Below are positions 11,502-31,235 of a stretch of 42,536 nt of DNA, piece by piece (position 1 is the stretch's first letter; each line of letters begins with the position of its first letter). The DNA comes from Nitrosopelagicus sp. REDSEA-S31_B2 (GTDB lineage: Archaea > Thermoproteota > Nitrososphaeria > Nitrososphaerales > Nitrosopumilaceae), in NCBI GenBank assembly GCA_001627235.1, contig LUPB01000007.1, positions 1-42,536 of the forward strand, in the 5' to 3' direction. Below the pieces are notes generated by a model. It saw only the letters and a list, made by a program, of their open reading frames with translations. It made no database searches and was not told the DNA's origin. The position numbers were made by a program, and so were the translations under genes.

Positions 11502-11617
11502 GCCGGGGTAGCTCAGCCTGGTTAGAGTGCCAGTTCAAATGGTAATCTCTAACGGTTCTTCCATTGAAGGCAATACTCATAATCTGGAGGTCGTGGGTTC
11601 GAAACCCACCCCCGGCA
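11502..11617 (+). tRNA. tRNA-Met (CAU), containing a 41-nt intron at 11534..11574
   Basis: GCCGGGG/CCCCGGC acceptor stem, GCTC D stem, GTGGG-TTCGAAA-CCCAC T arm, anticodon loop CTCATAA; stem CCAGA/TCTGG is completed only if the intron sits between positions 30 and 31. Confidence 0.9.
11534..11574 (+). other. Putative tRNA intron (non-canonical position, ~30/31)
   Basis: Removal of TTCAAATGG...GGCAAT restores a 5-bp anticodon stem and 7-nt loop; exact boundaries may shift by 1 nt or so. Confidence 0.7.
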
Positions 11618-24201: not shown

Positions 24202-25437
24202 ATGTTATCAGTCATACTTACTGAATTAGGAATTGCTGTCTTTGAAGAAGAAAAATGTATCAAAACATTTCCATTTTCAGAACCAGCAGAAGATTACGTA
24301 TTTGTAAAGAAAGGTAAATCCAGACTAAGTGAATTGACTAGATTCCTGCAAGAAAAAGACATCGATGTTCTTGTAAATGATTTAGGATTACAGGATCATC
24401 TCAAGAAAAAATCTATAGAATCACAATTAATGAACGAAGTCAAATTAGAAGATATTCAATTAACTAAACCACAGATTTTAGTTGATGCAGGTTTAGCAGA
24501 AAGTCATGATGATGCAATTCAGAAATTAAGAGAATTTGCAATTAATTTATCATCATCAAAAGTAACAGAAGTTTCATCTAGTCCAGATCTACATATTGTT
24601 CAAAGTATCAATACACTGGATGATACTGATAAAATAATCAATGGAATGAGTTCAAGATTAAGAGAATGGTATGGATTACATTTTCCTGAACTAGACAATA
24701 TTATAGATAGTATTAACGGATATGCACAAATTGTTGTTGCAGGGAAAAGAGAGAATATTACAGATGACGTATTTGTGAATGCAGGATTTCCAGACTCGAA
24801 GGTACAAATGCTATCGCTTGTAAAAGAGAAGAGTAGAGGAGGAGATATTACAGAAAAAAATCTTCAGATTGTACAAAATCTTGCTAAGAATATTTTAGAA
24901 TTATTTGATTTAAGAAATGAATTAGAAAAACAAGTGGATGAACAAATGAGCGATATTGCTCCAAACCTTTCTGCAGTTTTAGGTACAACAGTTGGTGCAA
25001 GAATTTTGGCAAAAGCAGGAAGTTTGCAAAAAATGGCAACAATGCCTGCAAGTACAATTCAAGTTTTAGGAGCAGAAAAAGCATTATTCCGTGCACTAAA
25101 GACAGGTTCTAATCCACCAAAACATGGATTACTTTTCCAACATGCAGTTGTCCATGCAGCCCCAAGATGGCAGAGAGGAAAAATTGCAAGAGCCATAGCA
25201 GCAAAAGCGGCAATAGCTTCAAGAGTAGATGTTCATGGAGGTGGATTAAACAGCACATTACTAGACAAATTAAATATCAGAGTCAAGGAAATCGAAGAAA
25301 AATATTCTAAACCAGTGAAAAAACCTCAACCACAAGGACAACAAAGAGGAAATTTCCATAAGAGCAAAGAATCTAAGCAAAAGAGAAGAGCTGATAGATT
25401 CAAGAACAGAAAGCGAAAGAATTTTGGAAGAAGATAG
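24202..25437 (+). CDS. Nop5/Nop56/Nop58 family C/D box RNP protein
   Basis: MSDIAPNLSAVLGTTVGARILAKAGSL...PASTIQVLGAEKALFRALKTGSNPPKHGLLFQHAVV. Confidence 0.96.
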   Translation: MLSVILTELGIAVFEEEKCIKTFPFSEPAEDYVFVKKGKSRLSELTRFLQEKDIDVLVNDLGLQDHLKKKSIESQLMNEVKLEDIQLTKPQILVDAGLAESHDDAIQKLREFAINLSSSKVTEVSSSPDLHIVQSINTLDDTDKIINGMSSRLREWYGLHFPELDNIIDSINGYAQIVVAGKRENITDDVFVNAGFPDSKVQMLSLVKEKSRGGDITEKNLQIVQNLAKNILELFDLRNELEKQVDEQMSDIAPNLSAVLGTTVGARILAKAGSLQKMATMPASTIQVLGAEKALFRALKTGSNPPKHGLLFQHAVVHAAPRWQRGKIARAIAAKAAIASRVDVHGGGLNSTLLDKLNIRVKEIEEKYSKPVKKPQPQGQQRGNFHKSKESKQKRRADRFKNRKRKNFGRR

Positions 25438-26095
25438 AAACTATTTTTGGTTTGAACTAGATGGAGAGAAAAAGCTCTTTACTGAAAACCTTTCTCCAGG
25501 AAAACAGGTTTACAAAGAAAAATTACTCAATAAAAAAGGCATAGAATATAGAAATTGGGAACCATTTAGAAGTAAATTGGCGGCATGCATAATGAATGGA
25601 TTAGAAGAATTTCCATTCAGAGAAAAATCAAGTGTTTTGTATTTAGGAGTGTCTACAGGAACAACAATTAGCCATATTTCAGACATAGTAGGTCCAAAAG
25701 GAATGATTTTTGGAGTTGAGCATTCAAGTAGAGTTGCAAGAGATTTTCTTGACAGAGTTGCAGTTTACAGAAAAAATATTGTGCCAATAATTCAAGATGC
25801 AAAGAAACCCGATGAGTATTTTTCAGTGTTCAGTAAAGTCGATGTAGTTTATGTAGATATTGCACAACCCGATCAAACAAAAATTGCTATTGCAAATTGT
25901 AAAATGTATCTTAAAAAAAAAGGGATCTTGTTTTTAGTAATTAAAACAAGAAGTATAGATGTAACAAAAGAACCGAACAGAATAATTGATGAAGAGATAC
26001 AAAAACTACAAACTAATTTTGAGATTCTTCAAAGAATTGATTTAAAACCATTTGATAAAGATCATGCAATGATCATTGCAAGATCAATTGACTGA
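25424..26095 (+). CDS. flpA: Fibrillarin-like rRNA/tRNA 2'-O-methyltransferase
   Basis: YLGVSTGTTISHISDIVGPKGMIFGVEHSSRVARDFLD; overlaps nop5. Confidence 0.95.
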   Translation: MEEDRNYFWFELDGEKKLFTENLSPGKQVYKEKLLNKKGIEYRNWEPFRSKLAACIMNGLEEFPFREKSSVLYLGVSTGTTISHISDIVGPKGMIFGVEHSSRVARDFLDRVAVYRKNIVPIIQDAKKPDEYFSVFSKVDVVYVDIAQPDQTKIAIANCKMYLKKKGILFLVIKTRSIDVTKEPNRIIDEEIQKLQTNFEILQRIDLKPFDKDHAMIIARSID

Positions 26096-27907: not shown

Positions 27908-28334
27908 ATTCTGGTTGAGTGTTTTTTGATAGTCCATTTTTTATAATTTCAAGAGCCTCAGTGGTTCTTTCAGGTTTGGGCAATTGTATCATGAAAATTT
28001 TTTCTGGATGGTCAACAGAGGCAATTGCAAGCATAGTAGTCTCAGCAAGTGATTCAAAAAACTCAACATTGTCATTTGCATTAACTAGAATTTTTTCATT
28101 GATTCCACCATGAGAGAATGTTAAGAGCATTTCAACAAAAACATGGCCTAAACCATCTTGTAAGATATTCAAATTGGTATCCACAGACAGAGGTTTGCCA
28201 GATACCTTACTTAGCATGTCATCAAATTTTCGTCCTTCAAATCCAATACATGGAACTCGTTTACCTTCAAAATCTTCCACAGACAAATCCTTGTGAGATT
28301 TGTTTAGCAATTCATCTAGCTCATTGCTTGCCAA
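27900..28334 (-). CDS. Conserved hypothetical protein (144 aa)
   Basis: Intact ORF overlapping the antiporter gene by 14 bp. Confidence 0.65.
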   Translation of the reverse strand: MASNELDELLNKSHKDLSVEDFEGKRVPCIGFEGRKFDDMLSKVSGKPLSVDTNLNILQDGLGHVFVEMLLTFSHGGINEKILVNANDNVEFFESLAETTMLAIASVDHPEKIFMIQLPKPERTTEALEIIKNGLSKNTQPEST

Positions 28335-29658
28335 CGTCTTTCCTCGTTAGTTTTGGAACCACGTAGTCACTTGCTTTTACCAAAAATGGCGTGATAAATG
28401 CAGTTATGATAGAAATTATTCCTATCAAAGGGAACAAAAATGCGCTAACAACTCCAGCATCCACACCAACTTTGATTATAACAATAGAGAATTCCCCTCT
28501 TGGGGCACCAAGAGTGAATGCTGAACGAAGTGATTTTCCTCGCGGTTGACGCATTAGTATATTTCCCAACATATTTCCTCCAAACTTCATTCCCATTGCA
28601 ATTCCAATTAAAGCGAGAGCTATGAAAATATAATTTTCTAATTGACTTACATCCATCAATGCGCCAACAGATACAAAGAAGATTGCAACAAACATGTCTT
28701 TAATCGGACTGGATAATATTTTTGAAACTTCTGCAGATTTTGATTCAGCAACAAGGACACCTGCAAGAAATGCACCTATTGCCACAGATAGGCCTACAAC
28801 ATTAGCCAGTAAAGCGTAACCAAAGCATACACCTAAAACACTAAGTAATAGAATTTCTCGATTCTCAGCACTTGCAACTTTATCTATTAATTTTGGTACC
28901 GTGCGTATACCAACCGTAAATGTACCTACAATCAAAATAGTGGCAACTACTACTACTGTAACTGCACCCTCAATGGAAACAGTGCCTGCTAATGCAATTG
29001 ATTCCAATGATGCAATTAGAATTACGGCTATAACGTCCTCAACAATTAAGATTCCTAATACAAGAATGGAAGATTCTTTTTTGATTTTTCCCGCTTCTTC
29101 TAAAACTTTGACGATGATTGCAGTACTGCTAATTGATAATGCCGCAGCTAGGAACAAGGAATCCATGAATCCAATTCCAAGCATTCCACAAACATAGAAC
29201 ACAGCAATTAATGTTAAGAAGAGACCTAAACTTCCTACACCAATAGCTACTTTTCCAATAGAACGGATTTTTGCAAATGGAAATTCTATTCCTATTACAA
29301 ATAATAGTAAAATTACTCCAATTTCTGCAAAGACGTTTAGTGCAGCAATATCAGAGAGTATACCTATTGAAGCACCACCATGATCACCAGACCCAGTTTC
29401 AGGAAGGAATGATGTCCAGATTGGCGATAATGGTCCAATCAACATTCCTGCAAAAAGATATCCAATGATTAGCGGTTGTCGAATCTTAAAGAATGCTAGA
29501 GTAACTATTCCTGCAAGAATCATTATGACTGCCAAATCAGTAACAAAGTTGTCATGAGGCATCTGTAATGGATTAATTTTATCAAGTAAAGTCCAGATAC
29601 CTCCTTCTATGGCACTTTCACTTTCTCCAGTACCCAACTGAAGGAAAAAATTCTGCAT
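28321..29658 (-). CDS. Cation:proton antiporter (CPA2/KefB-like, no TrkA domain)
   Basis: RQPLIIGYLFAGMLIGP, LSISSTAIIVKVLEEAG, multi-TM. Confidence 0.92.
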   Translation of the reverse strand: MQNFFLQLGTGESESAIEGGIWTLLDKINPLQMPHDNFVTDLAVIMILAGIVTLAFFKIRQPLIIGYLFAGMLIGPLSPIWTSFLPETGSGDHGGASIGILSDIAALNVFAEIGVILLLFVIGIEFPFAKIRSIGKVAIGVGSLGLFLTLIAVFYVCGMLGIGFMDSLFLAAALSISSTAIIVKVLEEAGKIKKESSILVLGILIVEDVIAVILIASLESIALAGTVSIEGAVTVVVVATILIVGTFTVGIRTVPKLIDKVASAENREILLLSVLGVCFGYALLANVVGLSVAIGAFLAGVLVAESKSAEVSKILSSPIKDMFVAIFFVSVGALMDVSQLENYIFIALALIGIAMGMKFGGNMLGNILMRQPRGKSLRSAFTLGAPRGEFSIVIIKVGVDAGVVSAFLFPLIGIISIITAFITPFLVKASDYVVPKLTRKDVGKQ

Positions 29659-29734
29659 CTATACACTATGTACTAGTTTACTTAAAACAATTTTCTGGAT
29701 ACGGCTTTATTTTAACAAAATTTTCACTATAATA

Positions 29735-29796
29735 TCTGGGATGATGATCAGAGTGTCGGATTCATGAAGAAATAAGCTCTGGGGTATCTGACCAGA
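29735..29796 (+). ncRNA. C/D box sRNA candidate
   Basis: Terminal stem TCTGG/CCAGA; C box ATGATGA 29741-29747; D'-like CGGA 29757-29760; C' ATGAAGA 29764-29770; D box CTGA 29788-29791. Confidence 0.7.
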
Positions 29797-29852: not shown

Positions 29853-29960
29853 ATGATACAATGTGAATATTGTAACAAAGGCTTTATCGAAAGCCAAAAT
29901 GGATTAGCTGAAAAGACATTTCATCAGTTATTGCATGACCCGGAGATTATCAACAAGTAA
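29853..29960 (+). CDS. 35-aa C2H2-type zinc-finger microprotein
   Basis: MIQCEYCNKGFIESQNGLAEKTFHQLLHDPEIINK*; CxxC...HxxxxH; TATATATG ~26 nt upstream fits a leaderless transcript. Confidence 0.7.
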   Translation: MIQCEYCNKGFIESQNGLAEKTFHQLLHDPEIINK

Positions 29961-30023: not shown

Positions 30024-31235
30024 ATGGTTGATAAAAAACGGGCAAAAAAACAACCAAACAAAACAAAGAGAGACCCAAATCCAACACAGTTATTCAATAA
30101 AGTAAATTCTGTTTCAGAATCAACAAAAGCATTATCAAAAGAGATCAAAGGAATGGCAAGGATCTTCAAAGAAAATCAAAAGATTTTGGTATCAATGAGC
30201 AGTATGATGGAGTCATTGAACGCAGCAATGGCACAAATGCAAAAACAGGCAAAGCAGATAGACATTATCGAGGAAGATACACAGAGATTATTTACAGGAT
30301 TGAATCAGGTAAAGGTTCATGAGAAGTTTATAACAAAATTGAACAGTCAAACAGAGCAATTAGATAAGAAAATTTCTAAAATTAGTGCAAAACAAGATGC
30401 AATGCCAAAAACTAGCGATATTATGAAGACAATTTCAGAGAGCAAACAATCAATTAAAAATAATTCAGAAATGATCATGAAAATTGCAAATAGGGTTGAT
30501 GAAGTAAAGGACAAGATTAATGAAAAACCAGGCAAAGGACAGAATGATATTACAAAACAGATAGAAGAACTAAGAGAAAATATCAAATCAATAAGCAGTA
30601 GAACAGGCGATATAGGAAAGGATATGTCAAATCTCAAAAATGAGATTGGTGGTTTGGTATCAAGTCCAAAAATTTCATCTTTGATAGGAGATGGAATGAA
30701 GACATTCAAATCAGAAATTGAGGAGAAGATATCAAATATTTCAAATATGATTAACCGTTCAGATCAATTAGCCTCAGAATTTCATCAAAAAACAGACAAA
30801 GTTATTCATGAATTACAAGGAGTAAAAGGAGTAACAAACAAGGCGTCAGATGATGCGTCAAAAGAAGTTATGGCAATTTTGAAACTAAACGAATATCAAT
30901 CAAGCATAAGAATGCAAGCAGAATCAAAATATGGAGATATAAAAGATGTTGAGAAGATGGCCATGCAGACAACAGAATTGATCAATTTGTTTGATAAGCT
31001 GTCAATTGAGACTGAAGATAAGATTCCGTTACCACATGAAGTAAGACGATGGGCAGTAGGCAAGATTTTTGATTGTGCAGATAGATGGGAACTAAGATTT
31101 TCAGAAGTGTTTGGCATATTGATAGACAACTTGGGAAGAGATTTGTTAAAAGAAGCAATTAGAATTCCTCAAGTTAGAGATATTTTTGGAATTCGTGCAG
31201 TTGATGAAATTAGAAATGAATTAAATATTTCTTAG
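30024..31235 (+). CDS. Long coiled-coil protein with lysine-rich N-terminus and globular C-terminus
   Basis: Extended heptad-like region, then IPLPHEVRRWAVGKIFDCADRWELRFSEVFGILIDNLGRDLLKEAIR. Confidence 0.8.
   Translation: MVDKKRAKKQPNKTKRDPNPTQLFNKVNSVSESTKALSKEIKGMARIFKENQKILVSMSSMMESLNAAMAQMQKQAKQIDIIEEDTQRLFTGLNQVKVHEKFITKLNSQTEQLDKKISKISAKQDAMPKTSDIMKTISESKQSIKNNSEMIMKIANRVDEVKDKINEKPGKGQNDITKQIEELRENIKSISSRTGDIGKDMSNLKNEIGGLVSSPKISSLIGDGMKTFKSEIEEKISNISNMINRSDQLASEFHQKTDKVIHELQGVKGVTNKASDDASKEVMAILKLNEYQSSIRMQAESKYGDIKDVEKMAMQTTELINLFDKLSIETEDKIPLPHEVRRWAVGKIFDCADRWELRFSEVFGILIDNLGRDLLKEAIRIPQVRDIFGIRAVDEIRNELNIS

Follow-up and report, generated by a model that had tools for sequence, protein, structure and literature searches.

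C/D box sRNAs, including rRNA guides directed to sites near the peptidyl-transferase centre, are well known (PMC4644070, PMC7994747), and a 10-bp limit of C/D recognition is mentioned in a further paper (PMC8162545). Searches of the open literature turned up no account of C/D sRNAs from the Nitrosopumilus/Nitrososphaera lineage and none of complementarity between the two guides (spacers) of one RNA. The locus described here lies in a 42,536-nt stretch of Nitrosopelagicus sp. REDSEA-S31_B2 (Nitrosopumilaceae; contig LUPB01000007.1), hereafter the window. It shares with the archaeal C/D box sRNAs (PMC7994747) the C-D'-C'-D arrangement, a length of about 60 nt, the terminal stem, the D+5 rule and the encoding of the partner proteins Nop5 and fibrillarin.

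The sRNA gene and its surroundings

Window positions 29735-29796 (forward strand) are confirmed, on the evidence of comparative sequence analysis, as a C/D box sRNA gene. Consensus boxes in the order C-D'-C'-D and a terminal stem are accommodated within 62 nt, comprising, from 5' to 3' and all on the forward strand, the 5' arm of the terminal stem (TCTGG, 29735-29739), box C (ATGATGA, 29741-29747, with TGATGA invariant in 39/39 aligned family sequences), a 9-nt D' spacer (TCAGAGTGT, 29748-29756), box D' (CGGA, 29757-29760), box C' (ATGAAGA, 29764-29770), a 17-nt D spacer (AATAAGCTCTGGGGTAT, 29771-29787), box D (CTGA, 29788-29791, invariant in the same 39 sequences) and the 3' arm of the stem (CCAGA, 29792-29796), which pairs with the 5' arm. 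An earlier sequence-only reading had placed every one of these boxes, stems and spacers correctly, and its proposal of an unannotated C/D box sRNA is upheld by the conserved boxes, the co-varying stem and the family-wide model matches. With regard to a kink-turn, boxes C and D are conserved and the flanking terminal stem co-varies, with compensatory changes in three of the four aligned pairs and 99% of cells paired. The window species and genome G025, whose copies are nearly identical, have box D' in the degenerate form CGGA; the remaining copies of the 17 aligned from the genus have the canonical CTGA. Box C' reads RTGARGA in these 17 copies; across the family C' is more variable (e.g. ATGTAGA, ATGATGA), and in a few genomes outside the 39-sequence alignment box D departs from CTGA (e.g. 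CCGA in G035). An Rfam scan of the stretch returned no family above threshold; its weak matches were nearly all to C/D box families, with archaeal sR9, sR41 and sR2 among the best.

A TATA-like promoter element, TTTATTTTAA, is located at 29706-29715 (forward strand), as the sequence-only reading had pointed out. Its assignment is based on positional clustering: 111 of 123 family members have a TATA-like motif between -38 and -18 relative to the start of the sRNA, compared with 22 of 123 in a control interval (-60 to -40); most of the motifs cluster at -31 to -27, and a smaller group forms a second peak at -36. The divergent upstream neighbour is a Na+/H+ antiporter gene (28321-29658, reverse strand; PF00999, E=3e-53). 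Downstream, the translation of 29853-29960 (forward strand) gives a 35-aa CxxC...HxxxH mini-protein, a possible zinc finger (ZnF) that has no Pfam match and whose ORF adjoins the sRNA in most Nitrosopumilaceae loci tested. It is followed by a conserved neighbour encoding a 403-aa coiled-coil protein (30024-31235), which has no confident family (a CorA-like match fell below the cut-off). The order antiporter, sRNA, ZnF, coiled coil and glycosyltransferase is kept across genera in most Nitrosopumilaceae loci tested. The window also encodes, in agreement with the sequence-only reading, the C/D sRNP core protein Nop5 (24202-25437, forward strand; PF01798, E=8e-67) and the 2'-O-methyltransferase fibrillarin (25424-26095, forward strand; PF01269, E=1e-85), which form a gene pair (24202-26095) 3.6 kb upstream of the sRNA. 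Elsewhere in the window, a tRNA gene at 11502-11617 was seen by Rfam and missed by ARAGORN at default settings; with some 45 nt more than a plain tRNA, it is probably intron-bearing.

The predicted 23S rRNA target of the D guide

Targets were sought in the 16S, the 23S and the extracted tRNAs of the window genome, which is 85% complete and for which all but 8 of 38 tRNA matches were extracted. The D guide, CTCTGGGGTA (29777-29786, forward strand), corresponds to positions 2-11 upstream of box D and pairs with 23S UACCCCAGGG, U2544-G2553 in the numbering of the window organism. The duplex with 23S UUACCCCAGGGAUAA comprises nine Watson-Crick pairs and one G-U with no mismatch, guide position 1 being unpaired. 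This was the sole 10-bp match with at most one G-U in the 16S, 23S and tRNAs scanned (23S 2543, UUACCCCAGGGAUAACA), and about 2.2% of shuffled guides gave a match as good. A 2016 paper by Yang, Lin and Ye (cited in PMC7089733) reportedly gives a duplex of 10 bp and a position 1 left unpaired as the limits of C/D recognition. By the D+5 rule the fifth guide nucleotide, G29783 (forward strand), lies opposite C2547, the predicted methylated residue, and forms a Watson-Crick pair with it in a register that is supported by co-variation. The sequence-only reading had likewise predicted a C by this rule, and that part stands; the target it had written out, the perfect complement of the 17-nt spacer (AUACCCCAGAGCUUA), is absent from the 16S, 23S and tRNAs scanned, and the actual match is UUACCCCAGGGAUAA. 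Neither spacer has a target among the extracted tRNAs.

C2547 corresponds to E. coli position 2441, via the universal GAUAAC motif, whose last A is A2451. The target corresponds to E. coli 2438-2447, on the 3' strand of helix 74 and adjoining the peptidyl-transferase centre, and 20 other Nitrosopumilaceae 23S genes have exactly the same target sequence. No description of an archaeal modification at the E. coli 2441 site was found in the open literature searched, and the site may already figure in the target list of PMC4644070 for other archaea.

The decisive support for C2547 comes from co-variation between guide and target. With a second model, 51 genomes of a different family in this order (f8) were seen to carry related sRNAs; judging by its placement within the order, f8 is presumably Nitrososphaeraceae. 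In the copies read the guide is CUAGGGUAU, with G changed to A at position 7. The 23S sequence expected of this family, UUACCCUAGGG, was written down before its sequences were read, and all f8 23S genes examined read GUUACCCUAGGGAUAACAGG, with a C to U change that matches the change in the guide. Duplexfold gave the f8 guide -13.4 kcal/mol on its own rRNA compared with -8.8 on Nitrosopumilaceae rRNA; in the opposite exchange a G-U pair accommodates the difference (-16.4 vs -18.7 kcal/mol). The co-variation represents one compensatory event, common to all Nitrososphaeraceae examined, and the guide/23S duplex of that family has only 8 contiguous bp.

The D' spacer and the internal helix

The sequence-only reading had envisaged two working guides, each to be matched to rRNA or tRNAs. 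The D guide does match 23S, whereas the 9-nt D' spacer has no target in the 16S/23S/ITS or extracted tRNAs of the window organism, and against the rRNA loci of six other genomes it gave sporadic weak matches, none of them shared. What the D' spacer does match, in Nitrosopumilaceae, is the D spacer of the same RNA: its sequence co-varies with 29776-29782, towards the 5' side of the D guide, and the two "guides" thereby pair with each other in an internal helix. The paired segments are CAGAG/CUCUG in Nitrosopelagicus, AGGUCAU/AUGACCU in Nitrosopumilus and GGUAUA/UAUACC in Nitrosotalea, with AGGUG/CACCU, AGGC/GCCU and GAGUAUAA/UUAUACUU elsewhere in the family.

In 39 distinct sequences, 96.9% of the cells of this helix are paired and three of its five pairs have changed on both sides; for the whole structure, including the terminal stem, 98% of cells are paired, compared with at most 52% in slid controls. 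The cis score of 15.35 exceeds the permuted value of 11.4 +/- 0.69 (maximum 14 in 5000; 17 distinct cores), in a permutation that ignores phylogeny, and the two-sided changes fall in separate genera (g1/g2, g3, g8, g10 and g19). RNAalifold recovers the helix unprompted, single-sequence folds contain it in six family members (z -2.2 to -3.3) and in neither of two f8 sequences, and at least five contiguous pairs are present in 18/18 genera tabulated. In Nitrososphaeraceae the helix is absent and the D' spacer is variable and unpaired. Judged from these alignments, the D' spacer of Nitrosopumilaceae is an arm of a cis helix and not a second guide. Binding of both guides to opposite strands of helix 74 was considered and rejected, as the D' spacer mismatches the 5' strand (AAGACCCCGUGGAG) and varies between genera while the rRNA is constant.

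Together, the locus is read as a C/D sRNA gene with its own promoter, whose D guide directs formation of Cm at C2547 and whose D' spacer serves as an internal helix, an explanation of the whole to which we assign a probability of about 0.88. As to expression and RNP assembly, the sRNA would be transcribed from its own promoter and would assemble with L7Ae, Nop5 and fibrillarin; pairing of the D guide with 23S U2544-G2553 would then direct 2'-O-methylation of C2547. The D' spacer is predicted to pair in cis with positions about 6-12 (up to 14) of the D spacer. The internal helix would lie between the C/D and C'/D' motifs and bury D positions ~7-12, with a 7-nt seed, GGGGUAU, remaining largely accessible. 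The duplex with the rRNA would overlap this helix and displace part of it, the computed energies of the overlapping duplexes being -18.7 kcal/mol for the target and -8.9 kcal/mol for the internal helix. The helix may serve in proofreading, as an assembly scaffold or as a filler of the empty guide channel. A more specific proposal, which we hold tentatively and at somewhat less than even odds, is that Nitrosopumilaceae have a self-paired guide in which the D' half is a former guide that now covers the 5' part of the D guide, and recognition proceeds from the 7-nt seed to strand displacement, giving mesophilic C/D RNPs a built-in means of proofreading or assembly.

Alternatively, the RNA could be a conventional double guide whose D' spacer targets an RNA outside the scan (a missing tRNA, 5S, SRP RNA or an mRNA): the D' spacer sequence CAGAGTG is invariant within the genus, and the incompleteness of the genome and of its tRNA set leaves room for such a partner. 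The spacer is nevertheless short at 9 nt, the other rRNA loci offer no consistent match, and it differs between genera, changing along with the D spacer, all of which makes this reading unlikely. Slightly less probable again is a main role in chaperoning rRNA folding at helix 74 and the core of the peptidyl-transferase centre rather than in guiding methylation. The guide does match one strand of a long-range helix, the box arrangement is compatible with both roles, and such roles have been proposed for archaeal double-guide sRNAs (PMC4644070, PMC7994747); those proposals, however, build on two guides that bridge two sites, whereas the D' spacer here is without an rRNA match, and both families have G at guide position 5, opposite the target C.

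Action of the D guide on the other 23S match, at 514 (GUACCCCGGAAG), is very improbable: guide positions 2-10 all pair there in the window organism (one G-U), but this site is unchanged in Nitrososphaeraceae despite the change at guide position 7, with which the 2543 site has changed in step. We give scarcely any credence to a reading of the element as a C/D sRNA pseudogene, or as a leader or regulatory part of the zinc-finger mRNA downstream of it. The family does keep the sRNA and the ZnF gene in the same 5'-to-3' order, and D' is CGGA in the window species, yet the ZnF gene remains where the sRNA has been lost, the Nitrososphaeraceae sRNA lacks these neighbours, the sRNA at locus L234 lies more than 2 kb from the antiporter gene, and the boxes and guide are strongly conserved.

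Distribution, loss and relation to known systems

Within Nitrosopelagicus a 141-bp stretch is present in 18 of 31 genomes. Across 17 of the genus genomes the 62 nt are 96% conserved, compared with 81% and 88% for the 60-nt flanks; being more conserved than both flanks, the sRNA is well beyond chance. The 23S match and the conservation of the boxes run clearly counter to two of the outcomes that the sequence-only reading had named as refuting its proposal, the lack of a complementary target and the lack of box conservation in relatives. A covariance model built from 13 distinct genus sequences matches 206 of 250 Nitrosopumilaceae genomes in 19 of 22 genera, and box C, box D and the D guide are near-invariant in the family. 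The invariance of the guide among 126 distinct stretches gathered by pattern is not evidence of this, since [C/T]TGGGGTAT-CTGA was demanded by the search; independent model searches gave the same D guide, the few exceptions being GGGGTAC, GGGGTAA and the degenerate sequence of the G074 copy. One pair is mis-assigned in model R2 (column 15 with 52, not 49), which slightly affects bit scores and on which no conclusion depends.

Thirteen Nitrosopelagicus genomes are without an sRNA match, of which 10 were shown to retain the 23S target; with the sRNA match missing, the predicted modification is probably dispensable there. In G002, G005 and G008 (loci L279-L281) the antiporter and ZnF genes flank an empty sRNA place: the sequence between them, as read for G002 and G005, contains no sRNA, and in G008 no box or guide match occurs between the two genes. 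This looks like true loss in one subclade rather than assembly gaps. The coiled-coil gene is much shorter in the same subclade. A degenerate copy in G074 (L335; G074:C57:15227-15288), mutated in box C, guide (CTGTGGTAT) and box D (CAGA), is possibly an sRNA pseudogene in that one genome. G036 (g3; L288-L290), a complete 2.0-Mb family member, has no recognisable copy and an intact 23S target; its GGGGTATCTGA matches were discarded as sRNA copies, sitting in unrelated sequence without boxes.

Beyond the order, a phylum-wide model search brought up C/D-like RNAs with this D guide in f35 (Sulfolobaceae-like), f18, f23 and f30, with differing second spacers and at modest E-values (4e-5 to 8e-4; the matches L399, L402 and L403 are unrelated). 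An identical or near-identical D guide, CCTGGGGTAT-CTGA, is found at L392, L394-L398, L400 and L401 in distant Thermoproteota families, which suggests, as a lead, a phylum-wide modification site.

For an abundant group of ammonia-oxidising archaea there is now a guide RNA whose predicted methylation site, next to the peptidyl-transferase centre and backed by guide-rRNA co-variation, is specific and testable, and the Nitrosopelagicus subclade that lacks the gene in an otherwise intact locus offers a natural gain/loss experiment, a natural knockout. The mutually pairing spacers bear on why archaeal C/D RNAs retain two halves. Some eukaryotic snoRNAs are known to have short helices adjoining C'/D'.

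Compared with described RNAs, this guide RNA is ordinary in kind and slightly unusual in design. The boxes of Rfam sR9, sR41 and sR2 align with those of the present sRNA and their spacers differ, and the scores of 17.6-20.2 bits lie below the gathering scores of 36-54 (best 20.2 vs 36). The Sulfolobaceae-like C/D sRNAs (L392, L395-L397, L400) have this D guide next to an identical D box and so presumably address the same 23S site, whereas their second spacer differs, is conserved (GTCATGCC in 4/5) and is not complementary to the D guide. Thermoproteus tenax sR152, with its 'empty' D' guide (PMC4644070), likewise has one working guide and a targetless second spacer; unlike in sR152, the empty spacer here co-varies with the working guide. 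Set against archaeal C/D box sRNAs in general, the D spacer is 17 nt rather than 10-12, and the D' spacer has only 9 nt and shows cis complementarity to the D spacer: the function is ordinary and the architecture is unusual.
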